A stretch of 52,672 nt of DNA from Perkinsus chesapeaki (lineage: Eukaryota; Perkinsozoa; Perkinsida; Perkinsidae), in assembly GCA_013115145.1 (NCBI GenBank), contig JAAPAO010000206.1, positions 1 to 52,672 of the forward strand, given 5' to 3'. This document shows positions 749 to 39,953 of the stretch, in pieces (positions within the stretch are counted from its first letter, which is position 1; every line of letters begins with the position of its first letter). A program made the translations under genes and the position numbers. The notes under the pieces were generated by a model that worked only from the letters and a program-made list of their open reading frames with translations, ran no database searches and was not told the DNA's origin.

Positions 749-1973
749 ATGATTTCCTTACAACATTATACTATTAAGTTGTTAATAGTAGTAATACATG
801 TACTTATCAGGCCCCTCCCCTATTTACCATCAAGTGGCATGCTAGGTTACATATCTTACTGCAAGTATAATAATATAATAATATATCTTACATTATATAT
901 CATGCATCATAGCAACGTGGTGCATTCATGGCAATTTGACAGGTGATAATTAGATTAAGTCATATAACGTATGTTGTTATTATTAGTAAAAGTGGTCCTG
1001 AAGGTTGGGTTGAAGACCACAACTACTTTCGCTGCTTACATGACGCCCCACCTCTCAAATGGGACAATCACCTTGCAAAATTATCACAAGAATGGGCTCA
1101 GGAATTGGATGATAGAAACACATTTGGGCATTCTGATTTATCGAAAGATCCATTACCGAGAGTTGAAGTACTAACATTTTGGACCGGTAACGCAGCACCA
1201 TCGTGCAATAGTGTTAATAAAGATTATGGGCAGTCATGTGCTGTTTTGTCGTGGTATATGCAATATGATCAGTATTGGAGATGTAATAATGATGATTGGA
1301 AAAGTATATTAAAAAACGGTAAAATGTCGCACTTTAGCGCAATGATACATAAGGGGCATGATATTGTGGGTTGTGGTAAAAGTAATAATCATTTTGTGTG
1401 CCAATATGGTAATAGTAAATGCACAACGATGGACAATTGCCCCACTGGTGACAATCCCCCACCATTAGCGAGCATGAATCTAGATAATGATAAAAGATGC
1501 TCCAGAAAGGATTCGTGTATTGCATGCAGAAATCTTGATAAATGGAAATCAGGTCAATGTGGAGTACCTAAGTTCAATCTCGTAATAATAAAAATCTTTT
1601 AATTATTATCATTACTTTTATTAGTATAAAGAATATTCAGCTGGAGATGGATGGTTTACTACTGTAATAATAATGATAGTATACTTCGTATTATGTTATT
1701 ATTTCAGAAATGGGTTGGCTCGGGATCACCACCAAGTTCTAATACTGATAAATCATTAACAGTAATAATAATATTGTTATTATACTTATTCTTATTTTAA
1801 GTTATCTACGCTCCGTAAAACAGCACAATCAAATAGTAATATTGAAGGGAAAGTAATAATTATATGCTATGATATTATTCACTTTAAATTAGGATTTCAA
1901 CCATCAACACAGCTCAGCATCATTACCACCTCATTATAATATTATCTTAATACTGCTCATTGTTATCATATAA
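749..1973 (+). CDS. CAP-superfamily (SCP/PR-1) protein with hydrophobic C-terminus
   Basis: The core exon (about 981-1581) carries a CAP domain: WVEDHNYFRCLHDAPPLKWD, then LAKLSQEWAQEL, then GHSDLS and a Cys-rich end. These match the family's first helices (HNxxRxxH..PPLxWDxxLAxxAxxWA). Three further exons fit by splice signals and frame: 1708-1761, 1802-1852 and 1893-1973. They add a Ser/Pro/Asn-rich stalk and a final hydrophobic run (YNIILILLIVII) ending at TAA. This suggests a membrane or GPI-type anchor. The three donors all read GTAATAAT. The 5' end is less certain: an upstream exon 749-942 begins MISLQHYTIKLLIVVIH, signal-peptide-like, and joins across a 38-nt intron (943-980) in phase. 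CAP proteins are usually secreted; the target of this one is unknown. Confidence 0.78.
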
Positions 1974-19579: not shown

Positions 19580-19990
19580 ATGTCAAATGATAGCGGAGAG
19601 AGGCCACATATCGGTTGGGAGATAGAGAAGATGACAGAGTCGGTAGATAGCACTCATCACAACATTCAAGATCTTAAAACTAAGATAACGGCTGTTGTGG
19701 GCCGATTGAACCAAATCAAGTTGGCAGTGTCATTGGCGTTGCCAGCGGCAAGTAAGCCACGTATGGGAAAGGCAAGCTGGGAAATGAACCGAGAAAATGC
19801 TGCGCCGCCTGGAGTGATCGCAACTCGGCGAATTTCCTCGTCGATGGCAGATGACGGCATTGCGCCGAAATCAGGCACGCGGACAGGAGGGTTCAAACGG
19901 ATGGATGCGGAAGTGACGAGGAGAAGATTGGAGCAATTGAGGAAGGAGATAGCGGATTATAAATCACATGTGGGAGGGGTGGTATGTTAA
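19580..19990 (+). CDS. Small coiled-coil protein, unknown
   Basis: An ATG at 19580 (MSNDSGERPHIGWEIEKMTE) opens 136 codons to a TAA at 19988. There are helical, heptad-like segments at residues about 15-45 (HHNIQDLKTKITAVVGRLNQ) and 108-130 (RRRLEQLRKEIADYKSH). Between them is a basic, Ser/Arg-rich linker. Codon use is regular and no stop interrupts. No family recognised. It could also be a 3' exon set of a spliced gene, since an acceptor-like TTACAG lies at about 19510-19515. Confidence 0.5.
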   Translation: MSNDSGERPHIGWEIEKMTESVDSTHHNIQDLKTKITAVVGRLNQIKLAVSLALPAASKPRMGKASWEMNRENAAPPGVIATRRISSSMADDGIAPKSGTRTGGFKRMDAEVTRRRLEQLRKEIADYKSHVGGVVC

Positions 19991-20839
19991 GAAGTTGAGG
20001 TTAGGCGAGGGTTCGGAATGAAGGGAAATAGCATTGATGGTATGGGGAAATAAAATAAATAATAAAGGAGAAAGATACATGGTTTTGATAATAATATGGT
20101 TATAGGACTCTACAGTGGAAATTTCAGCTCAAAACTCGGCGTAGTTGATAAGGACATCTCGCACTGAATAGCTCCGACCTCTCCAGATTGCGCGAACTGT
20201 ACAAGAACTGAATTTATATGGACATTTATAATGTGAATGTGTTATATAAGGAAAAAACAAAAAATTACACAGAAACCTAGTTTGAGATCGTAGAGCTTCT
20301 AAATTGGTATGAAGTTAACAGAGGTATCCAGGCTACTAGCCATAAAATACTGGAACAATACGAATGCCTCCACGGAGCGTTGTTGGTAGGTATATGAGAT
20401 GGCGGAGACTGCCGAGACTAGAAAAGGAGGGTTGAGAGGGACTATACGGAAAAAAGGGGCAGTTGATGATAAGAGCAAATCACTGTGAGTCGAAGTTGTC
20501 GGGTTGTCACAGTTGGCGCAATGTGAAGGACACATGCGGAATGTTTACTAGTTGATACTAGGTTACTAGGTTGTCAACATTAATCTGGAATCGCGTATAG
20601 AAATCCGACTAGAATAATATTATATCGTTTCGATTTTCTATGGCTTGAATTCAAGACTGAATTTTCTGTACCTTTCCTTTGCCGAATGAGATCCAAATTT
20701 CCACGATCAAATGGAAACGGAGGTCTGTCAAGTGAACGTATTCTGAATCGAATTAAATATCGTCACAGAATTTAGAAACATTCTGCAGTCAACTACTCGC
20801 ATCCAGTGTAAAGCTATCACTTCCTGTATAGCCTTCACC
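19991..20839. other. Spacer upstream of the multi-globin gene
   Basis: Contains only short minus-strand frames. I looked for another globin domain here and found none, so the ATG at 20840 is the best start for the multi-globin gene. Confidence 0.5.
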
Positions 20840-23800
20840 ATGAAGATAGTTGCCGAATGTAGGTATGAAAGGCTGGGTGGAGTCTCTGACATCGAAGCTG
20901 CGGTTGACCTGCTGTATGATAAGGCGTTAGCTGATCCACGTAAGTTGATAGCATGTGGAAACGAGGTGTTGTTATGATGATATGCTGCGAAAGTCACTAC
21001 CCGGATTTGAACTGGGGTTGTCTCGGCCACAACGTGACGTCCTGACCACTAGACGATAGCGACTCCAACTATTTTAATAGAGCGGTTACCTCGGCAAAAA
21101 GTCGGTAGATTTGAACCGTATAGGTACACGCGCTCACTTTGACAAAACTCAGAAGAAAATGGGACATATCAGAAAACGCATGCAGACCTTCCTTGTGAGC
21201 TACGTTGGAGGCCCGGCCACCTATGATGAGGAGGATCTAAAACCTGTAGAGACGGCAGCAACGAACTGGGGCTAAAATGGGGGCAGGTTCATTACAATAT
21301 GAATATTATGGATTATCACTTCGATGCCATGTTGGAGCATTTGGGCTCCTCGCTGGCTGAGATGGGAACTCATCCCGAGGCCATTGCAGATTGTATGCAG
21401 CTTCTGGGGAGGGTCCGGAAGTATATCACTACCGGATGTGAGAAGGCAGTTATGAGGTTAGTGTTGAGCATCAACTTAGGCACGGTGCGAAGAGCGTTGG
21501 CGAGGAAGGCACGAGAGCAAGGGAGAGACGAACTGTTTTTGGAATTGGGAGAAAGTGGAGGAATTGAGAATTTTATGACTAGAACGTAAGTCAGTCCGCA
21601 GGTGAGGGTCTCCATGGGGAACTTTTGAGGAGTTGGATTCATTTTCGGAAGATATTAGTTATACTATGATAATAGTTTTCGTACAGTACTGGTGAACCTC
21701 GCTATGCAGTTGGTGCGAAGTCCTATGGGTTAGATTATAATGAATCTTTATGATGATCTGACCCATAGGACTTCACGCCTATTAATGAATGACAATGTAA
21801 CGTATTAGATATATTATAAGTAATAATTATATTAATAATATCATTGTCAATTTATAATGGTATACACCCATGGTGTTGTTGGATTCATAAACTTCCTCAT
21901 CGAAGCTCTGCGGTATTCCAGCCTGCCGTTGTATAAATTTCATTCGTCACTTCTTCTGACTCATATAGCTATACGTTTCTCATCGTGGCGCCCGTAGCAT
22001 CCCTCGAACTATCCTGAGCTTTGAGCGGCTCCTATAAATCCAGAAGTAGATATTCGACTGATGGTGTTGTTCATACCGATTTTTTGGTAAGGTACGATAT
22101 CGTTAAGGTGGATGACAGGCTGAGGACATTCTTCAAGGGCAAAGACTTGGACGCTATCAAGCACCGGCAAACACTGTAGGCTAATTTCGAGTGTATTACG
22201 ATCCAGCATGTGCCCCCATCTTACGCATTATTAACTCAATTCACAATGTTACGGCAATACAATTCAACCGTGATGAACTGATGCAATGATAATCTTTAAT
22301 GTTGTGGAATGAGCGAGTGTGAATTAGATGCTTGTCTATGATTGTCAAGATATCATTGAACGTTCTGGTCAGGTATATGTGCGAGCTTCTGGGTGGCCCT
22401 CGCATGTATGAAGGGCGAAGTATGGTAGAAATACACGATAATTTGAAGATCAACGATTATCTATTTGACTGCTTCATAATGGACGCGGAGAGAGCACTGC
22501 ATGGTGAGCTCTTGGGGATGGGAGTGGTAGAGAATAGTTTAATCTTTTCATAATCCCGAGGATCTATTTTCCGCAAGGGTCATTTCCGGTCGATCGGAGA
22601 ACGACAGAATCGCGGTCATCAGTGAGCGAAGCTGCTGAATTAGCTATTTACTTTTCTCGAAGGAGCCGATAAGCGAGGCTTCTCCGCCCACTAGTACGCG
22701 GGCTGAGCTGATAAATAACAGCCATCATCATCACCACCGTCAAGTTTCGCGAAACAAGAGCTGCTGCTGGGCTGATTTGAGCCTTATTTCCTGGCGACGA
22801 TGCTCTTGGTAATATCCAGCAGCTCAGTCCAATCCTGCAGGGTCTTTGAGAAGCTGCCTTTGGAGCCTTCTTTTTGGTATTAAATTCGTGCTTTACATAA
22901 TTTCGGCGTTAATTAGAAAATTAAGTATTCCAGGCTGAAGGGTTTGAGTTAATTTCGTGGTATAGCAGTTGCGATATCGCCGTTCATCGTTGGTGGTAAT
23001 TGGCAGGCCTCAACCTGACTGAGGATCTTCACGACATAGTTGTATCGACACTAGAAGATCAGCGGAAATATATAGTCAAAGGGCACAACGACGGGGATAC
23101 AGTCAAACTAGTCGACGGAAAAACGGTATGAAAAATCAAAGCTGATCTTGGAATATCGTCTAGATTCTCGAACGAGTTGGCGGGGAGATGAACGTCGAGG
23201 CGGTCGTGGAGACGATGTAAGGAGCTCGGAACAATCTAATGACTGAGTTGGTCAGGTATTTCGGAGCCCAACGAGATCCGAGGATCAAATTCTTTTTTGT
23301 GATGGAGAAGGAGAAGTTGACTGCCGTTAAGAGGAAGGTTTCCGAGTTCCTTTGCGGAGCTTTGGGAGGCCAATCTTCGTAAGTATAAAAAATAGCTCAA
23401 TTGTGCTACAGGCTGAGTAGGATTGACGTGAATATCGTTCGAGCCGCTCACTACCCTATGAACATCGGAGATCATCAGTTCGATGCTCTGGTTGAAAACT
23501 TAGCAGCGGCGATGGAACTGATGGAAGTAGAAGGTTCGGTTAAGTCGGATGTGTTGGACGTTGTCAGTCATGTAAGCTGGGATCGTTGTAGGGTTTGTAG
23601 TTTGCTCTGAGCAGTTGCGGGGAGAGATTACCGCTGGCGCCACAAGTCGATTGGAGATCGCTCGAAAGAAGACAGAATCGGCAGGTGAGGTCGTTCGCGT
23701 ATCTTAGTGAGTGTTGCTGCGTGTTGGATATCTCTGTACCGAACTTGGCTCAATGTTCTCGAAGGACGTTTTTCAGGCACCGATGGGTTATATAAGACTA

Positions 23801-26800
23801 TTGGAGGAGATGACGGTGTTGTGAAGCTAGTCGATGAGCTGTAAGTTCTCCGTTAAAGAGAGGAGCTTCGGACTCTAGGATATTTAATATTTATTTGCCA
23901 AATTAAATTAGGTCTTCACTGTTACTAAATAGATCTTGAAACGGTGTAGAAGAATTGAAGCCTGTATAGACTCCATACATGCCCCAGCTCTTCTACGTTA
24001 TGTCAAGCCTCCATACTATGGAGGCTGCTTTAGAATTATATTAAAGGTTGACTCTTTACTAGTAAGGTTAATGCTGTAATTGAATGCACATTGTGGTATA
24101 GTGGTAAATGAGCTCTTGTTACTACTTATTGCAGATCCTTTAATAATTTCTCATCACTGTCCTATGAGTTGCTCCTTGTCATTCACTACTTCGCATCCCT
24201 AATAAGGATACATTGTTATTGGAGATTATGTTCAATTTCTCTCGGAATTTGAGGCCATAGAAGCGTTTGTTCAGCAGTGAGCTACACGTTGGGAAACCTA
24301 GATTGTAAAAACGCTAACGACCATAAGCGCATTGCCTTTTTTGCCTTCAAGCGGCGATTTTCAGGTATAAAATATGTCTTGTGGATGATCGCATTAAAAA
24401 GTTCTTCCAAGGGGAAAAGCTTGAGAGTGTAAAAGCGAACCAGACAGTCTTCCTACAGCAATTGCTGGGTGGATCGGCAGAGTAGGTCATCCGAAATCTC
24501 GCATAGCAGAAGCCAGCGGTCGGGATATCGAAGCATTCGGAGCTTTTTCCTGAGGGATTCCCTCGCAATAGACTAAGTTTGATAGCTCCCCTTCGGGCGT
24601 CGTTACATGTGATTTGAACTCCTTCCTCCCATCACCGCAGATGGTCCAGAGTCTGGACCATTCTGCCGATAATGGGCAGTGAGCTGCTGTAAAGTTTTAA
24701 ATTGAACGAGGTAAACTATCAGTGATTTGATAGGACTAAATCCATCTCCGCTAACGGTTGAAACGGTCCTTAGTAATGAGCAGTACATGCTGCAGCAATC
24801 ACGCTGGTCTATTTTAGGGCTACGGCCCGTAACATTGCCTCCTGATCCTTCAATCCCGTCTCGAGGCTCAGAGCGCCTCAAGTCAATATTGCTTGACGCT
24901 GCATCTGTTAAAACATTTTCGCGCGAATCTCTCAATGGGTGGGAGTTGGTCTCGAGTATGGAGGCATCTCGGTTCATCAGGTACAATGGCCGGGACTTAC
25001 CAAGAATTCATCAAACCATACAGATTCAAGATTGGCAATTCGACGCCTTCATGGATAATGCTCGGAAGGCGTTCGCGAATCTGGGGTAAGCAGCACCGAT
25101 TTCAGTCGTGGTGGAATCATTATTTTCAGAACTGATGACGATACCATCGACGAGTGTACGGTTTTGATGGAGACGACGAGGCGGGTGAGCTTTGGTGAGA
25201 AATGTTGGTGTAGGAAAATGGTCCGCAATAGGATGTCGTTTCGGAGGAGAACAGACAGTTTGATGTACGCCAGATGATGCATGATGCCCACAAGAAGGTT
25301 CTGTATGAGAGAATAGGCGGCGAAGTTAGTAAGTGGAGGAGGCGTAGTTAATTTTCACTAGAGTCATAACACATTACAATATCCCGGTATTTGTATGTTA
25401 TATTGCTTCCAATTGATAAGGCGAAGGTGCCTTTATGGTAAGGCGGAAATAGTGAAGGGTATATCGGGCATGCCTCCCATTGGAGGCGTGCAACGGAACT
25501 AATTGCATTGTGTGCGCTGAACAACTTTGAGTTTGATTATCACTTTGCTCTCAGCCATTGCCAGACTCTGCGACTCCATGTATGCTGCTGCACTGGATGA
25601 CGATCGGCTACGGTTCTTTTTTGAGAAGAATAAGGCAAAGGTGAGGAGACGTTCTTGAGCGGAGCGAAGCATTTTACAGTCGGAATTAATTTGTGCAATC
25701 TTGAGATATATCTCAATGTGTGTACGAATGTATAGAATGTGTGGTGTATGTACGAAACAGAAGATCTTGTATTTTATCAAGTCCTTATGACCTCATAATA
25801 CCGATTCAATACATACCAACTACTATCCTATTATATATATTTATAGCTTATGCACCACCTTCATAGTAATCCCTTCTTCGGAAATGCGAAAAATTCAGTC
25901 TCCTCGGTGGTGATCAGGCAGTAGTGCACTGCCTGGCTGGTTGTCTAGTCCAGCTCTGGTAACCATAGTCTGGGACCAGTGGGTCGACTAATACTCCGGT
26001 CGAAAAGCGTTTTGACCCTATACGTGCCAGGCACTAGCTGCATTTGTCATTTATTATTGGTTATTAGGTTCAATCAATCAAGAAGAAGATGACCCAGTTC
26101 ATTTGCGGTGCTCTTGGTGGTGAGTCCACCCCGTACCAATCCCGAAGCTTTTTAATATTGGTTTGTCACTCTGAATTATTGTATAGAAGGCTGCATAACA
26201 TGCCCTAGAAAACTCCTTCACACCGAAGTCAGTCTAACTCTGGTCTCGGTCCGAGAAAATTCGAGCCTTCTCGAACAATCCATAACACTAAGCTCTTTCC
26301 CAACCTACTGATCGCCTTATCAGGCCCGACAACGTACGACATAGCGGACCTACGACCAGCCCATTACTCTATGAACATAACATCACATCACTTTGACGCG
26401 ATGCTGTCTATCGTGAAGGAGGTGACGGATCTCTGTTGATGGATTGTTAGTTGATCGTCAGATTCTTATAGGAGAGTTAGAATTTAACAGAACTGATGCC
26501 CGAGAAGTACTACGAGCACTTCAGCCAGTCAGAGGCGATATCATTAATGGATGTGAGACGCTTAATTGAGTCGTATCTTATCTTCTATTTTCAAATTCAA
26601 GAGAAGTTGGTTCTGATTCTGAATTTCTGAAGCTCCGTAAAATATCTTCTCAAGTAGGGTTTATATTTCACACTGCCGGTTCTTGAAACCGTTACAGTGT
26701 CGCCGTGAAACACCCAAAGCGGCGAGTGTAAATTGTCCGTATATCTTTCCGCTCACCTTCACAATACACGATGTGAATGGTGTTATGCATCAGCCAGAAC

Positions 26801-28815
26801 CGGTTTGGTATGTCCCAGATACAGTACGTTCAGAGATAGCCAAGCGGGCGACCGAGAAGGGCCTTGATCAGATGTTCCTCAGAGTTGGTAAGTGGATTGT
26901 ATAATCGCTGTTAGCAGTATAACGATCAGGGGAGTCCGAGGGCATCACAAGGATAACTGCATCACTCTTCTCGATTCTTGGAACCGACGCTAGATTGAAG
27001 CAGTTCTTCAAGCCGGACAAGCGTGATCGTATCAAGGAGGGGGTAACAGTATTCCTAGTGGATCGGTTTGGTGGCCCCAAAAACTACCAAGGTGAGGTCA
27101 TCTCAAAGGTGAGGTAGATGAATGTTCCTGATAGGCCGCGACCTTGCTGCAACCCACGCTGGCCTTGACATTACAGACTATCACTTCGATGCCTTTGTTG
27201 CTGATTTTTTGAGGTCACCAAAATCGAGTCTGGTATACTGTGACCATATTTTTCAGGGCGTTGGGGGCGAGTGGTATTGATGAGACTGTTGTGGATGAGC
27301 TACTCGTGACACTGGAGCCTTTGCGCTCGCAGGTCCGCGTTATTCCTGTTATCTCTGACGTCAGCAGTTGCTCAGGTTCTCGGACAAAAAGATGAAGTGC
27401 CGGCTGCTTTGATAAAGAATGGTCAAACCATTATCGAAAGGTTAGGAGGAGATGATCAACTTGAAACTCTTGTCGAAACTTTGTAAGCTCTCTACTTCTC
27501 ATCATGTAGTGTGCCCATCATTTGAACAGTGCTTTCCGATCGGCAGACAGCATTTACTCACAGTGACGCTATGACATATCAAATCTTTGGTCGTAGTGGT
27601 CTAAGCTTTTCTGAGACAAAAAGACTGCCGAGCGGAATTTTCAGTACCAAAAAACGACATAGTAGCCAACCGTATTTTAAACGCGCCTATGTGCGGCATC
27701 CAAGCATTATAATAACCGTGATGTATACAAACCTCCAAGTGCAGATTTGGTCGATGAAAGCTATCCTGGATGGAGCCGCCTTGTGCATCACTCGTTGTGT
27801 TTTAGAATAGAAAAGGTTGGGAATGACAATCGACTGGAGTTCTATTTCGAGAAGGGCCACTTTAAGCTGAGAAATATCCGCCGACGGTTGTACCAGTTCA
27901 TGTCCGGAGCATTCGGAGGGCCAGTTCAGTAAGCTCAGTTTTTTATCCAGAAAAATACAATTCACTAGATACGACGCTGATCGGTTGAAGCCAGCACATT
28001 ACGATATGAACATCACCGATTTCCACTTTGACGCTTTCATTTCCGTCTGGACGGCCACATGTGAGTTGGCCAGAGTAGTCGACTCCTATTAGTCTCTGAC
28101 CGCAGGTAAGGAGTTCGACGTTGATAGTGAGTCCACGGAAGATTCAATCGAAGTGCTGAATGGAGTTAGATCGGCAATAACAGGAGGGTGCGTTATACGG
28201 ATGGAAATGTCACGCAAAAAGGTATATGCCTCGAAATGCTGATGCTGGCCGAAGCTGGTGGCAGGCTCAGCTGGAAAGCCCTGAGCAGCTCTTTGAACGT
28301 CTTGGCAAAAAAGAGGGTATCATAAAGATTACCGATAAGCTGTACACCATGGTTACCAGAGACCATCGTGAGTTACGCACCATTGCGATGTTTGAGGTGC
28401 TCTTATAGGTATTAATATGTTCTTCGAGGGTTCTAAATTGAAGGCCTTATGGAAGGGATTCACAACATATTTTATACAGGCTCTTGGAGGACCACAAGAG
28501 TATCGTGGGCGAGGCCTTGGTGAAGTTCACGGAGTAAATGACTAGGAGATTGATCGTCATCTGCACATGTTATTTCAGACCTTAGCGATCAATGACTATC
28601 ATCTAGACTGCTTTTTACAGCTACTTAACAGATCACAGCTTCAGCTTGGATTTGACCGCGAGACTTGTGATGATACTTTCGTAACATGATGCACGGCTTC
28701 ACCGGCTCAAGGCTTTTCGGTTTAGGCACAATTCGAGAAGCTTCGCCCTCAAATACTTCATGCACATTATGTGAGATCTGGTTATGTTCACACTGATGCT
28801 TCCTTTGATATCTAA
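20840..28815 (+). CDS. Octa-domain truncated haemoglobin (eight tandem trHb domains)
   Basis: One gene of about 32 exons and about 1,075 codons. Exon-by-exon splicing keeps frame through eight group-1-type truncated globin domains with only two or three doubtful junctions. Domain starts: D1 20840 (YERLGGVSDIEAAV), D2 21480 (LFLELGESGGIENF), D3 23164 (ILERVGGEMNVEAV), D4 23777 (LYKTIGGDDGVVKL), D5 25232 (VLYERIGGEVTIARL), D6 26819 (MFLRVGESEGITRI), D7 27376 (IIERLGGDDQLETL), D8 28265 (LFERLGKKEGIIKI). Every domain then has the CD/E region, a GG turn (degenerate only in spacing), the proximal F8 His and the G helix (for example NIMDYHFDAMLEHL, KINDYLFDCFI, DITDYHFDAF). B10 is Tyr in D1-D5 and D8, Phe in D6, Ile in D7. 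Haem binding and O2/NO chemistry are family knowledge. No signal peptide is seen, so it is probably cytosolic. Most introns are 38-50 nt. The junction in the D5 G helix (about 26430-26480) is unresolved. Confidence 0.9.
20993..21063 (-). tRNA. tRNA-His(GUG)-like sequence, probably degenerate, inside intron 1 of the globin gene
   Basis: On the minus strand 71 nt fold as a cloverleaf. The acceptor is GTCGCTA/TAGTGAC, the D stem GTCT/GGAC, the anticodon loop TTGTGGC (anticodon GTG), and the T loop TTCAAAT. The sequence AGGACGTCACGTTGTGGC matches eukaryotic tRNA-His closely. Two stem mismatches weaken it: A-A in the anticodon stem (TCACG/CGAGA) and A-C in the T stem (CCCAG/CCGGG). It may be a decayed tRNA or tRNA-derived insertion rather than a working gene. 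It lies antisense in the intron 20940-21123. Confidence 0.7.
21717..21774. repeat. Inverted repeat, 19-bp arms, 20-nt loop
   Basis: The left arm GAAGTCCTATGGGTTAGAT (21717-21735) pairs with 21756-21774, with one G-T wobble. It lies in the 506-nt intron (21586-22091) of the globin gene, one of its few long introns. Confidence 0.95.
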
Positions 28816-31928: not shown

Positions 31929-32734
31929 TTAATTTTAGTTATTCATCGATAATTGTTATCAATGCCCTTCGCCCAATGACAGGCGTGCTGTTGTTGAACA
32001 GCAGGAACAGCTTGTTGAACGAAGGAACAACAGTTGTTCCTTCGTCCCCTAGGGGAAAGTCGTATAGACTCAGCACATAACAAGCGAGATCCTTTAGTAA
32101 GGGCTGGACTGTTGTACTGGTAAGTAGTTGCAGAGCAGGACAGCTACTGGTCAGCAAAGGAGTGGGTCACATTATTGGGCAATAAATGCTCAGAATAGAC
32201 GATCAATAACTGTTAGCTCACTCTGCCACCCATGCGCACTGAGTGGAGCTAAACGATACTACTTTGTATGAAATGGAACACTGTCTTGAATAAGCAAGAA
32301 TCTATCGATGGGCCACCTATGGTGGTCGATTGCTGCAAGACGTCACGCCGTTGGTCATTGTATCTCCGCCTACTTTGCCTTTAATCGTTTCCTTCTATCG
32401 TAGTAGCTTTGAGTATTATTATAGGCATCACTGTTCTGAATAATTGTCGTCTGTTACAGTCATTAGCGTACATATCATGTCGTCGGTAATGACGTGAATT
32501 CTTAGTTCGCTTACCCGTTTCGGCCCTCGCCGGCTGTACACAGAATTCAACTGATCTCGTATACGCATGTGCACTCACATTTTAGCTAAAAAGGGCATGC
32601 AGGCACATGTGGTAGGCTGGTTATTGAAGGTTTATTACAATGTCTATAATAACAAATGCTATAGAGAAAGGGAAGGGACAGATGCAGGATAGAAGATATC
32701 ATGATAATATGTGAAGAGCAATAACTCTTCAAAG
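31929..32734. other. Spacer containing a hairpin
   Basis: Apart from the inverted repeat at 32020-32044 I see no supported gene or RNA. Confidence 0.4.
32020..32044. repeat. Perfect inverted repeat, 12-bp arms, 1-nt loop
   Basis: CGAAGGAACAAC and its complement GTTGTTCCTTCG flank a single A. Confidence 0.95.
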
Positions 32735-34063
32735 CTCCGAATTTAAACACCAAACTCCTACTGCATGGTCAAGGCTTCACAAGAATGTGTGATCTAAGCC
32801 AATACTGTAACGTAAAGTTCCTAAGTCTAGACTTCAACATGATAAAGGAAATACAAGGTCTAGAGTATCTAGTAAATCTTACATCACTTCATCTGCAAGG
32901 CAACCATCTTACTAAGATATCGGGCCTAGATCGAAATATAAACCTAAGGGTACTCAATCTTAGCGATAGTCATATAACTGAGATTGGGGACGGCTTAAAG
33001 CACCTTACTAAACTCACCAACCTAAATCTGGCCAATAACTACCTGGTAGATTTCCACGAGGTGGTGGAGGACATTAGTGTGTGTCCACTAACAAGCCTTG
33101 ATATCAGTAACAATAGACTGGAGGACTTTGGAACGTCTCTCGACGATTTTTACGATCGACTGGGGAGCTTACGCTGTCTTTATTTGCATCGGAACCCAGG
33201 AGCGCGAAGAGTAAAAGGCTTAAGGAAGAATCTTATCTCGAAGCTTGCTGATCTGAACTGCTCGAACGATAGGTAGTGGAATCCGCACCGAGCCCAGAGG
33301 CCCATAAGATACATAATTAGACCTGTTACGATATATGAACGCCGTGGAGATGAGATTGACCGCAGAGAGTTGATGAAGGCCAATGAGATGAGAGATGATG
33401 AGTGGGAAAAGAGACAAAGGAAAATTACACAGTAATTATATTAAGCACTCCTACCACCGCCAAACATACCTTAGACGACGTAACATGGCATTGGAGAGAA
33501 TTGCTAGAGAGAACCTTGCCAGGGGGCTGAACCAGACAGTACAGAGAGACAGTACAGTATACCGCATACAAGACTGGAGAGAAACGAAGATCAAAGTGAA
33601 CACGTAAATGGTGACGCGAGAAGTAGATTGGTATAGGTGTCGCTGTGGGAGAACAGATAAGACAAAGAACCATTCATACACCATCAACAGGCCAAACAGT
33701 GACAGAGCCTCTGTCACAGAGGTAGAACATACTCCTATTAGGCTTATTGACGAATAATCGACATAGCTGACAATATATAGTAATCCTATGCCTATAATAG
33801 TATTATAATAATACCTTTTAAAGATACCATGGAACGATGAACAACTATGGCAGTCGGTCGAGGTTGACAGAGAAGCTCTAATTGCCGATGCTAATCTCAT
33901 AAGAAACACGAGACACCACACCTCAGTGAGAAATAATATAGAATTGCTTGTTCGAAACTCCTCCTGTAATAAGAGTGGAATGTACGATCCTCCTCCATCA
34001 CCAACATCTTTTCCCGTCATAAGATTCTCGTCCAATCGCTCGCACCCACGGATATTTGAATAA
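32735..34063 (+). CDS. Dynein axonemal assembly factor 1-like LRR protein (ODA7/LRRC50)
   Basis: The exon 32735-33272 begins after an acceptor and reads TKLLLHGQGFTRMCDLSQYC. It then carries consecutive leucine-rich repeats of about 22 residues (LVNLTSLHLQGNHLTKISGL; LTKLTNLNLANNYLVDF; CPLTSLDISNNRLEDFG; LGSLRCLYLHRNPGARRVKG). The 48-nt intron 33273-33320 joins in phase to give LNCSNDRPVTIYERRGDEID, matching the YLDDRPVF cap typical of DNAAF1. A charged tail follows in several exons (about 33477-33606; last exon from about 33827, ending NRSHPRIFE at TAA 34061-34063). DNAAF1 is needed to preassemble outer and inner dynein arms, which fits an organism with flagellated zoospores. The first exon with the start codon was not found; inner 3' junctions are approximate. 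Confidence 0.82.
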
Positions 34064-34651: not shown

Positions 34652-35779
34652 TTATAAGGGACTACCGATTAATGGCCGATCAGAGTAGCGAGCGAGTTTC
34701 ACCAATTTACGTTGCATATCAAACGATGACAAATAGGTGGTGAAAAACGGACGACCCAGAATAATCACCGCGCTAGAGCTTTGATGAGAGATCATTTTGA
34801 GCACGTACCATCCATCATCATGCTTCTGAGCATACTTCTTTGGTGGGATACGTATGACGAGTGGGCTTAGGGGATAAGAACCAACGTTGAACGTCAAGGT
34901 AGGCAAGAAGTTGTATGCTGCCTTCTCGATCAGCCAAAAGAGTCCACTTCTTTCGATTTTCGGATACCTACCGGAGTCATTGTTTACTGACTGACGTATC
35001 TCTTCCAGAAGGTAACCTAACTGCACTTGTGGGAAGCTGAGCGTGTATGTCCCGGTGTCGTATACAGCAACAGCACCAGACAACTGTTTCGTGGAAGCTT
35101 GACCTCTAGAGCTCACCAACCCAAGACTGTGCAGATTTGTAGCCAATACACTGGGGTATTCACCGTTCATTGGAACTGTCATAGTAGTTGCAGCTTTAAT
35201 AGGACATTTATCTTTCCACTGTCCCAACAGAAGGTGGCCACTGAAGGTTGCCACGCCACTAGCCGAGATGCTCACTGAAACAGAGTACTCCTGCACGATC
35301 TTATTATTAAATAGATCTAATGGTACTGTGTGAGGGTTATCAGTGTCAGCGAAGGCCAGACCGAGAAAGTTCACAGGCTTCCGAGTAGATACTGATCTAG
35401 TGAAACCGATGATGAGGCGGAATCGGGTTTTCAGTTTATGGCCACTCACATCAATCTCCCCCTCGTGCTGCACGGTAGTGATAGTCGAACCGTCCACGAA
35501 GCGGGTTGTATGATTCTTCATCTTGAAGGGGTCGCACGCACTTGTGCAAACATAGCATAGTCTGGGCGGGCATGAGCCTTTCCCATAGACCTTTTCGTAC
35601 CAATCTTTGTAAATAACTGAAGTTCCGCTCACGCCCGTGTCCATGAACAGGTCCAATGGTTGACCATCGAAGCTGATTCCGGTAACAATGCTATCGCCGA
35701 AGGGCAGGGAGATTTGGCCGATGACGAAGTGTAGACCAACCGAACCTACGAGATAAGATTCGATAGCCGTGAATTGCAT
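34652..35779 (-). CDS. Pepsin-family (A1) aspartic protease
   Basis: A single uninterrupted frame of 375 codons has an ATG at 35779. Two catalytic motifs lie at the expected spacing: LDLFMDTGVSGTS (Asp 47) and AVYDTGTYTLSFP (Asp 241). Supporting motifs are FVDGSTITTVQHEGEI (flap hairpin region), NFLGLAFADTDNP, and a C-terminal IILGRPFFTTYLSSFD, all typical of A1 proteases. Compared with the classical DTGS motif both sites differ in the fourth residue (V and T). The flap lacks the usual Tyr. The first 22 residues are hydrophobic in part and could serve as a weak signal; there is almost no propeptide. Pepsin-like proteases are a large family in perkinsids and apicomplexans, acting in secretory compartments or outside the cell. 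The gene has no intron, unlike most neighbours. Confidence 0.92.
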   Translation of the reverse strand: MQFTAIESYLVGSVGLHFVIGQISLPFGDSIVTGISFDGQPLDLFMDTGVSGTSVIYKDWYEKVYGKGSCPPRLCYVCTSACDPFKMKNHTTRFVDGSTITTVQHEGEIDVSGHKLKTRFRLIIGFTRSVSTRKPVNFLGLAFADTDNPHTVPLDLFNNKIVQEYSVSVSISASGVATFSGHLLLGQWKDKCPIKAATTMTVPMNGEYPSVLATNLHSLGLVSSRGQASTKQLSGAVAVYDTGTYTLSFPQVQLGYLLEEIRQSVNNDSGRYPKIERSGLFWLIEKAAYNFLPTLTFNVGSYPLSPLVIRIPPKKYAQKHDDGWYVLKMISHQSSSAVIILGRPFFTTYLSSFDMQRKLVKLARYSDRPLIGSPL

Positions 35780-35850
35780 TGAGAGATTGGGAACTTTGAC
35801 AGTGTCCGAGGAGATGATTTACCTCAGGCGAACAATAAAGTAGAGTCACA

Positions 35851-38315: not shown

Positions 38316-39953
38316 AGAGATGTCAGTGGTACCGTTACGTTGCCGATATCTGGGCGCCGACAATTGGTTACCCTGCAACATGAGGGATAACTTCTACCTC
38401 TCTTTTATGACTTGTGAATCTACAAGTACAGAATGTTCTCATTTGTTGGGCAAACCGTGACATGTTGTGAGCGTGCGATCTTACGTGGAGAGGTTTGAAT
38501 GTTCAAACATTTCGTATTACTCTCACTGACTCACGTACGACGCGCTTACGTCTTGCCTTCGTCAATTAGCTAGAAACACAAAAGGTGTAACTACGAACGG
38601 GCACATTATATCAGCGAGAAGTAAATTATAAAATAGTAAATAGTAAAATATCTTTCCAAAGATATTAGTAGCAGTAAAAAAACAAATTTTTTTTACTTAA
38701 ACCGCTCAGCAATACCCACACCCAATAACTCTTAAAAGAGTAAATGGATCATCGAAGTCGAATACATTATTGTATTGACTAAACCTCCATTAGGGTGGAA
38801 AGGTATACAACTCCTCATCACGGCTTAGGGTTTTGTCAAGAGTACTCTTGTGAACGAAAGGAAATCACTACATAAGTGATCCTGTTCGAGTACGGTCGAC
38901 ATACATTAATAGCACGGAGACGCGTTATTGGGGTGAGAGTTGAGGGAAGTGTGGTATGACGCACGACACAAAGATCTGTCCCATTAACATAAAGAGCATA
39001 AAGAGCGACACGCCCGAGACCGACTACAACGGCATGGGAACTGCTATCGACATTATGTGAAGACTCGCAGCTTCATGTGGTGGAACAGACAGAGTTCACG
39101 TACAATATGGCGCATTGTGCTACATGAGGAGTGATATTCATGAACATACACGATCTGTGAGCTCAAATCAATGATTTGAAATCATTGACTTCATAGATTG
39201 GCGACAAAGATTTGACGGATTGGGACAAAGTAGACTAGCGAAGACGTAGCTGCGAAGTCATAGATAGAATTGCGCTGCTTCAGCTGAATAGCCCAGTTCG
39301 GTTGGTGTAGCACTTGACAGTCGAGCTAGCAGGTCATTGTTACCTCGAATCGCAGGCTTGGATTCGAAGACTCGTGTTTATTAACTAAACAAGTCAGTAT
39401 TAGATACGTCAACAGACGTAGAAATAAAATCTAAAATAATCCTTGGATGCCTAGAGGATATAGCTACTAATTATTTCAGTGAAAGATAATACGTTTGGAT
39501 GCAGGAAGAGAACAGTAGTTCACAGAATGAGGCGATTGTGACAAGTCGACGACAAGAATAAAGTACGGAATGCTGGGAATGGAAATTAGTCTTCATGACG
39601 CCGCGCGCTGCTGTGCAAGCAACAGTGTATCTAAAGTAAAGATCATTCCAGTTTATGTTATGAGAAATCATACGCAGCTTGAGCTCCATGTCATCTAGAA
39701 TAGGCAATAGATCATCTTTCACCTGAAGAAGGCGGCTTCCCGAACGCGGATGACAAATCTTACGAGCTTTAACAACAGTTCTTGCCGTTTTGCTAGTCGC
39801 ACTGAACTCTCGTACGGTGAAGCCGAATCGTCACTGTCATCAGCCTGAGCAACAACACCTTCTCAGTGACGCAGCCGAGCCTACTTACCAGCTCACTCTT
39901 CCCTAGTTTACCTTCTTGGTGGTAAGATGATCCTGGAAATTAACACCTTGCTT
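38316..39953. other. Spacer, with possible minus-strand exons near 39600-39860
   Basis: The 38.3-39.4 kb part is AT-rich and holds a palindrome TCAATGATTTGAAATCATTGA at 39168-39188. On the minus strand, 39720-39850 reads DDSDDSASPYESSVRLAKRQ and LVRFVIRVREAAFF, and 39600-39720 reads DDLLPILDDMELKLRMISHN. These look coding and could be the end of the channel gene or a separate gene; junctions are not clear. Confidence 0.4.

Follow-up and report, generated by a model that had tools for sequence, protein, structure and literature searches.

A 52,672-nucleotide stretch of DNA from Perkinsus chesapeaki, a unicellular shellfish parasite (contig JAAPAO010000206.1 of the assembly GCA_013115145.1), which we refer to as the window, contains a gene for a long chain of truncated haemoglobin (trHb) domains. 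Profile and residue comparisons show that the product is a multi-domain group-1 trHb, and we consider it nearly certain that a single gene specifies an N-terminal region followed by four A-B pairs of group-1 trHb domains. The first-pass annotation of the window had proposed eight trHb domains in a single open spliced frame, and this was borne out by the final gene model. The Pfam family PF01152 matched the spliced protein in 8 stretches (E 6.9e-113), as many globin-profile matches as had been expected, and the proximal histidine at position F8 (F8 His) was present in all 8 domains.

The product of the window gene is here called P0001, and its first-draft version was used in the per-domain scans, the NCBIfam scan and the homology search. 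When scanned singly, 8 of the 8 draft domains scored above the 21-bit cut-off for PF01152, with 42.8 to 61.0 bits. Protoglobin gave a weak match (29.1 bits against a cut-off of 25) that overlapped domain 1 and had no stretch of its own, and NCBIfam gave no globin match for the draft product or for the homologue P0010.

The homology search, which scored only the 7,992 candidates with the most shared words, returned 35 proteins, among them P0002, the annotated NCBI protein of the same gene (FOL47_003438, "hypothetical protein"). The named sources were P. olseni, P. marinus, P. chesapeaki, Oxyrrhis marina and Effrenium voratum, and the rest came from metagenome and transcriptome sets. The transcriptome protein P0010 (MMETSP0469, presumably Oxyrrhis) was 80.9% identical over 618 residues to the four-domain protein P0032 of Oxyrrhis marina, and because of this close identity we call it Oxyrrhis-like. 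A profile built here called exactly eight domains in 15 of the 35 proteins, 4 to 13 in 19, and one in a bacterial chemotaxis protein. The residue counts below refer to 15 octamers, namely the model and 14 of the 15 proteins with exactly eight calls; P0007, which has 413 residues before domain 1, was left out. This set includes both P0001 and P0002, which represent one gene, and also P0021 and P0023, in which the first or last domain is shortened.

F8 His was found in 120 of the 120 domains of the 15 octamers. Because every domain has this haem-ligating histidine, a multi-haem protein is likely, and the sequences suggest that the chain binds up to eight haems. The multi-haem polypeptide proposed in the first-pass annotation stands as far as the eight domains and their histidines are concerned, but the eight sites are not equivalent.

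Among solved structures, the closest to both the odd-domain and the even-domain profile was Tetrahymena 3aq5, which is named as group 1 (E 7.4e-27 and 1.8e-27, respectively). The match to Mycobacterium HbO, a group 2 trHb, was far weaker than those to the group-1 structures (1.3e-8 or worse). An AlphaFold model was made for the homologue P0010 from 18 sequences, with a mean pLDDT of 81.9, a pTM of 0.65 and values below 60 for residues 1 to 100. The domains had mean pLDDT values of 82.6 to 89.5. In a Foldseek search with this model, the 50 best of 109 rows were trHbs, each aligned over one domain, and the top TM-score by target length was 0.91, to 3aq7 and 3aq5, which indicates a 2/2 globin fold for P0010. 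The best matches in both sequence and fold were group-1 trHbs; the fold model carries no information on haem. The mean pLDDT of the linkers was 81 to 90 from odd to even domains versus 71 to 77 from even to odd, which suggests that the A-B pair is the stiffer unit of the array.

Two alternating domain classes and their origin

By its residue patterns, the array is composed of four A-B pairs, in which odd (A) and even (B) domains alternate. Positions B10, E7, E10 and E11 were assigned by the trHbN numbering, with which the Tetrahymena alignment and the mutant names in the fold matches agree. In the odd domains of the 15 octamers, E11 was Met in 40 of 60 cases and Gln in 0 of 60, E10 was Lys or Arg in 56 of 60 (42 Lys and 14 Arg), and two additional residues preceded helix E in the alignment to 3aq5. 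In the even domains, E11 was Gln in 36 of 60, and E10 was Ala, Gly or Ser in 48 of 60. The combination of TyrB10 and GlnE11 was present in domain 2 of 11 and in domain 4 of 13 of the 15 octamers, and in the window protein it was confined to these two domains, the other six being without it.

The same two classes were recovered in the domain phylogenies. An unrooted tree of 64 domains, taken from 8 of the 15 proteins, separated odd from even domains with support values of 100/98. A second tree, which included four single-domain outgroups, had the odd and the even domains each gathered to one side of a branch, with support values of 98/94 and 99/95; besides the outgroups, its 48 rows came from P0034, P0035 and 4 of the 15 octamers, and the long Effrenium rows were placed unsurely. 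Among the outgroups were two adjacent intronless single-domain trHb open reading frames of 121 residues on contig C13 of the same assembly (L003 1486-1851 and 2808-3173). Within the 64-domain tree, the groups of domains 1, 3, 4 and 6 were starred, those of domain 5 (77/58) and domain 7 (86/77) were weaker, and domains 2 and 8 did not form single groups. The order of the domains was common to the Perkinsus, Oxyrrhis-like and metagenomic homologues.

Traces of duplication were also found in the gene itself. Of the 34 introns, 30 were located within domains, and 11 pairs coincided in alignment column and phase, as compared to a random mean of 1.16, with 0 of 10,000 draws as high; the random introns were spread evenly, and homology-guided junctions may inflate the coincidence count somewhat. 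One intron just before B10 was shared by domains 2, 3, 4 and 7, one after the GG turn by domains 3, 4 and 7, and one after the end of helix H by domains 1 and 5, with one more common to domains 1 and 8. Furthermore, a search for DNA repeats identified a 47-base family whose four copies are distributed singly over domains 1, 3, 5 and 7.

The domain tree and the shared introns support an origin of the array through internal doubling before the split of Perkinsus and the Oxyrrhis-like lineage. As for the order of events, the pairings of domain 3 with 7 and of 2 with 6 were present in the best tree, and those of 1 with 5 (p 0.383) and 4 with 8 (p 0.384) were absent from it and not rejected. The rival pairings of 1 with 3 (0.074), 5 with 7 (0.103), 2 with 4 (0.108) and 6 with 8 (0.124) were likewise not rejected. 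A 1-2-4-8 order of doublings is thus only compatible with the trees.

Gene model and neighbouring features

The final model was rebuilt with P0002 as a guide and comprises 35 exons that encode 1,185 residues with a single stop at the end (Table 1); the computed mass is 134 kDa. Earlier, the gene had been thought to start at position 20840 and to yield a product of about 1,075 residues. That ATG falls within intron 3, which spans 20485-20862 and is followed by an exon beginning at 20863; three further exons extend the gene upstream to about 19580. An in-frame Met at 19631 provides an alternative start. In a Pfam scan, the N-terminal region gave 18 weak matches, all below the cut-off.

All 34 introns have GT-AG borders, but since the junctions were picked with homology in view, their correctness is supported and not proven. 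The annotated protein P0002 is 1,273 amino acids long and has 88 extra residues in domain 4, without counterpart in P0003, P0010, P0014 and P0020; this insert was excluded from the final model. The alignment to P0003 of P. olseni covered 933 residues at 76.3% identity with zero gaps in the model. Two gaps were present in P0003, one representing its missing start (238 residues, corresponding to the N-terminus and domain 1) and the other 14 residues near the end, next to which its last residues diverge from the model. The alignment to P0010 covered 1,156 residues at 46.6% identity, with gaps of at most 11.

It could be argued that two or more adjacent genes have been wrongly joined by the reading of the exons. 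Homologues that resemble fused neighbours do exist, as P0004, P0005 and P0006 have 10 to 11 domain calls and, from a gap of about 90 to 120 residues between calls, appear to be adjacent arrays that the annotation has run together. There are also four-domain models (P0028, P0029 and P0032), which may be genuine short forms. Against such an artefact in the window stand the single frame across the 34 introns and P0003, itself a predicted protein, which covers domains 2 to 8. A single transcript is supported by P0010, P0012 and P0022, which are labelled as transcriptome proteins, are 1,154 to 1,159 amino acids long and hold all eight domains. We therefore regard a wrongly joined gene as highly improbable.

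Table 1. Positions of the globin gene and its trHb domains in the window.
Feature	Position	Strand	Details
Whole coding region	19580..28815	+	Gene model; alignment to P. olseni P0003
Exons 1-3 (19580-19751, 19875-19969, 20390-20484)	19580..20484	+	118-amino-acid region preceding domain 1; aligns with the start of the Oxyrrhis-like transcriptome protein P0010
trHb domain 1, odd type	20477..21502	+	F8 His codon 21290-21292
trHb domain 2, even type, TyrB10/GlnE11	21527..23104	+	F8 His codon 22434-22436
trHb domain 3, odd type	23120..23662	+	F8 His codon 23449-23451
trHb domain 4, even type, TyrB10/GlnE11	23782..25270	+	F8 His codon 25009-25011
trHb domain 5, odd type	25295..26841	+	F8 His codon 26362-26364
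trHb domain 6, even type	26866..27399	+	F8 His codon 27155-27157
trHb domain 7, odd type	27424..28212	+	F8 His codon 27997-27999
trHb domain 8, even type	28283..28788	+	F8 His codon 28528-28530
Stop codon of the globin gene	28813-28815	+	

Several other features were noted in the introns. A gene for tRNA-His (GTG) was identified by ARAGORN and Rfam on the minus strand at 20991-21064, antisense within intron 4. Intron 7, of 506 bases, contains a 33-base inverted repeat (21712-21779) with a 2-base spacer and 82% complementarity, which resembles a small hairpin element, and three further introns are likewise 499 to 524 bases long.

Elsewhere on the contig, a U3 small nucleolar RNA was located at 38700-38899 on the minus strand (Rfam RF01848, 102.7 bits). 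Open frames were found with an aspartyl protease (34655-35818, minus strand), a CAP domain (940-1599, plus strand) and leucine-rich repeats (32725-33273, plus strand). Among the 10 longest neighbouring open frames, no functional link to the globin gene was seen.

Homologues within and beyond Perkinsus

A strict constancy of eight domains was rejected by the domain calls given above, with 15 of the 35 homologues having exactly eight. Some of the deviating counts are put down to models that are partial, fused or split by an insert, and in the alignment all eight slots are retained by the divergent proteins P0030, P0033 and P0034. Since relatives beyond the genus have the same eight-domain chain, the design is an old one that has been retained. 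Oxyrrhis is free-living, and the presence of the octamer in the Oxyrrhis-like P0010 makes it unlikely that the role is confined to parasitism.

In the same assembly, multi-domain matches were found on contigs C779, C88, C340, C34 and C554 in addition to the window, with counts that represent lower bounds. The Effrenium voratum protein P0035 combines a protein kinase domain with strongly diverged trHb-like domains, of which five were called by our own profile and two by Pfam.

A search of viral and prokaryote contigs with the metagenomic octamer P0014 found no relatives, within a search that reaches close relatives only, and a single-domain query (domain 4) directed at the same question of a viral or prokaryotic origin gave no match. 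With the even-domain profile, two matches were obtained, to a fragment from P. olseni and to a trHb from Hyphomicrobiaceae.

Possible functions of the array

Sequence alone cannot separate an O2 store, an NO dioxygenase and a haem store. As the most likely mechanism, still tentative, we propose that the B domains carry out O2 and NO chemistry and that the A domains have a different role. The B domains, above all domains 2 and 4 with their TyrB10/GlnE11 pair, would have a high affinity for O2 and turn NO into nitrate. Domains 2 and 4 are proposed to act on NO because this pair is tied in the literature to the NO dioxygenase trHbN, in which TyrB10 and GlnE11 are described as distal hydrogen-bonding residues that trigger ligand gating (PMC3820574). 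In the A domains, the pocket formed by E7 and E11 is hydrophobic and E10 carries Lys or Arg; these domains would do a different job beside the B domains, for example ligand storage or the passing of electrons to the B neighbour, and we infer that they may serve as a relay or a store. For Chlamydomonas, Lys E10 is described as the sixth ligand in THB1, THB2 and THB4, and THB11, with the same Lys, as five-coordinate in the reduced state (PMC7082302).

Several observations weigh against this mechanism. In the window protein, GlnE11 is absent from domains 6 and 8, and the TyrB10/GlnE11 pair is present in domain 6 of just 4 and in domain 8 of 5 of the 15 octamers. As read off the alignment, E10 of the window protein is Lys in domains 3 and 5 but Arg in domains 1 and 7, whereas it is a Lys that acts as sixth ligand in Chlamydomonas. 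An NO dioxygenase requires a reductant, and the Pfam scan identified no reductase domain in the spliced chain. F8 His is also absent from slot 6 of the metagenomic protein P0033 and from slots 5 and 6 of the metagenomic protein P0034; as both retain the array, haem at every slot is not essential everywhere.

In a stronger version of the division of labour, which we consider improbable, the odd domains, with their basic E10, their hydrophobic residues at E7/E11 and possibly a Lys ligand, would hold electrons and hand them on to the even O2/NO domains, forming four covalent A-B donor-catalyst pairs kept in order since before the split of Perkinsus and the Oxyrrhis-like lineage.

Alternatively, the eight linked globins might merely multiply the sites of a high-capacity O2 or haem store, with the two classes reflecting divergence. 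Invertebrate multi-domain haemoglobins are a precedent, in which the linkage of globins gives each molecule more binding sites, and the invariant F8 His in the octamers and the same-family matches with several domains each on five further contigs are in line with such a store. However, a store would predict interchangeable domains, whereas positions 1, 3, 4 and 6 keep their identity across lineages, positions 5 and 7 more weakly so, and the pockets of odd and even domains differ consistently. A simple store is for these reasons unlikely.

Somewhat more doubtful still is that the array is mainly structural, perhaps anchored via the N-terminal region, with haem used for signalling. The conservation of the N-terminal region in P0010, the retention of the array in P0033 and P0034 despite a missing F8 His in slot 6 of the former and in slots 5 and 6 of the latter, and the coupling of a kinase domain to trHb-like domains in P0035 would fit a scaffold or sensor, but an F8 His without exception in 15 octamers would be needless for a pure scaffold.

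Tandem trHbs as such are not new. The trHbs were originally described as single-domain globins (PMC7082302). The Perkinsus domains resemble the Tetrahymena pyriformis trHb (3aq5) and Mycobacterium trHbN (1idr) in fold, sequence and F8 His, but the latter are single domains of about 120 residues and the Perkinsus chain has eight. A study of multidomain truncated haemoglobins by Hade et al. 2017 (IUBMB Life) names tandem globin-unit repeats in its title and reportedly describes multi-unit trHb N in protozoa, among which P. marinus may be included. Proteins with several 2/2Hb domains include Chlamydomonas THB5, which is described as having four consecutive trHb domains on one chain (PMC7082302); the Perkinsus chain differs in having eight domains that alternate between A and B. 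The protist Guillardia theta is described as having chimeric globins, with six globin domains in two proteins of more than 1,000 residues, but there the domains are of the 3/3 globin type and the N-terminus is a putative cytochrome b5 (PMC4101818). Among the titles listed in searches of mostly open-licence literature, none concerned tandem trHbs of Perkinsus or Oxyrrhis. We rate tandem trHbs as already known as a kind, and the eight domains, the A-B alternation and the conservation across genera as probably new.

An eight-domain chain in two classes offers a natural test of what the linkage of globins achieves, be it site number, cooperation or division of labour, and the position-specific residues point to the domains worth comparing. 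If electrons do pass from odd to even domains, one chain would be a self-contained array of donor-catalyst pairs. The domain order common to the different lineages dates the assembly of the array. P. marinus has been reported to be without catalase (PMC6642578), and the array adds a large candidate haem protein to Perkinsus.

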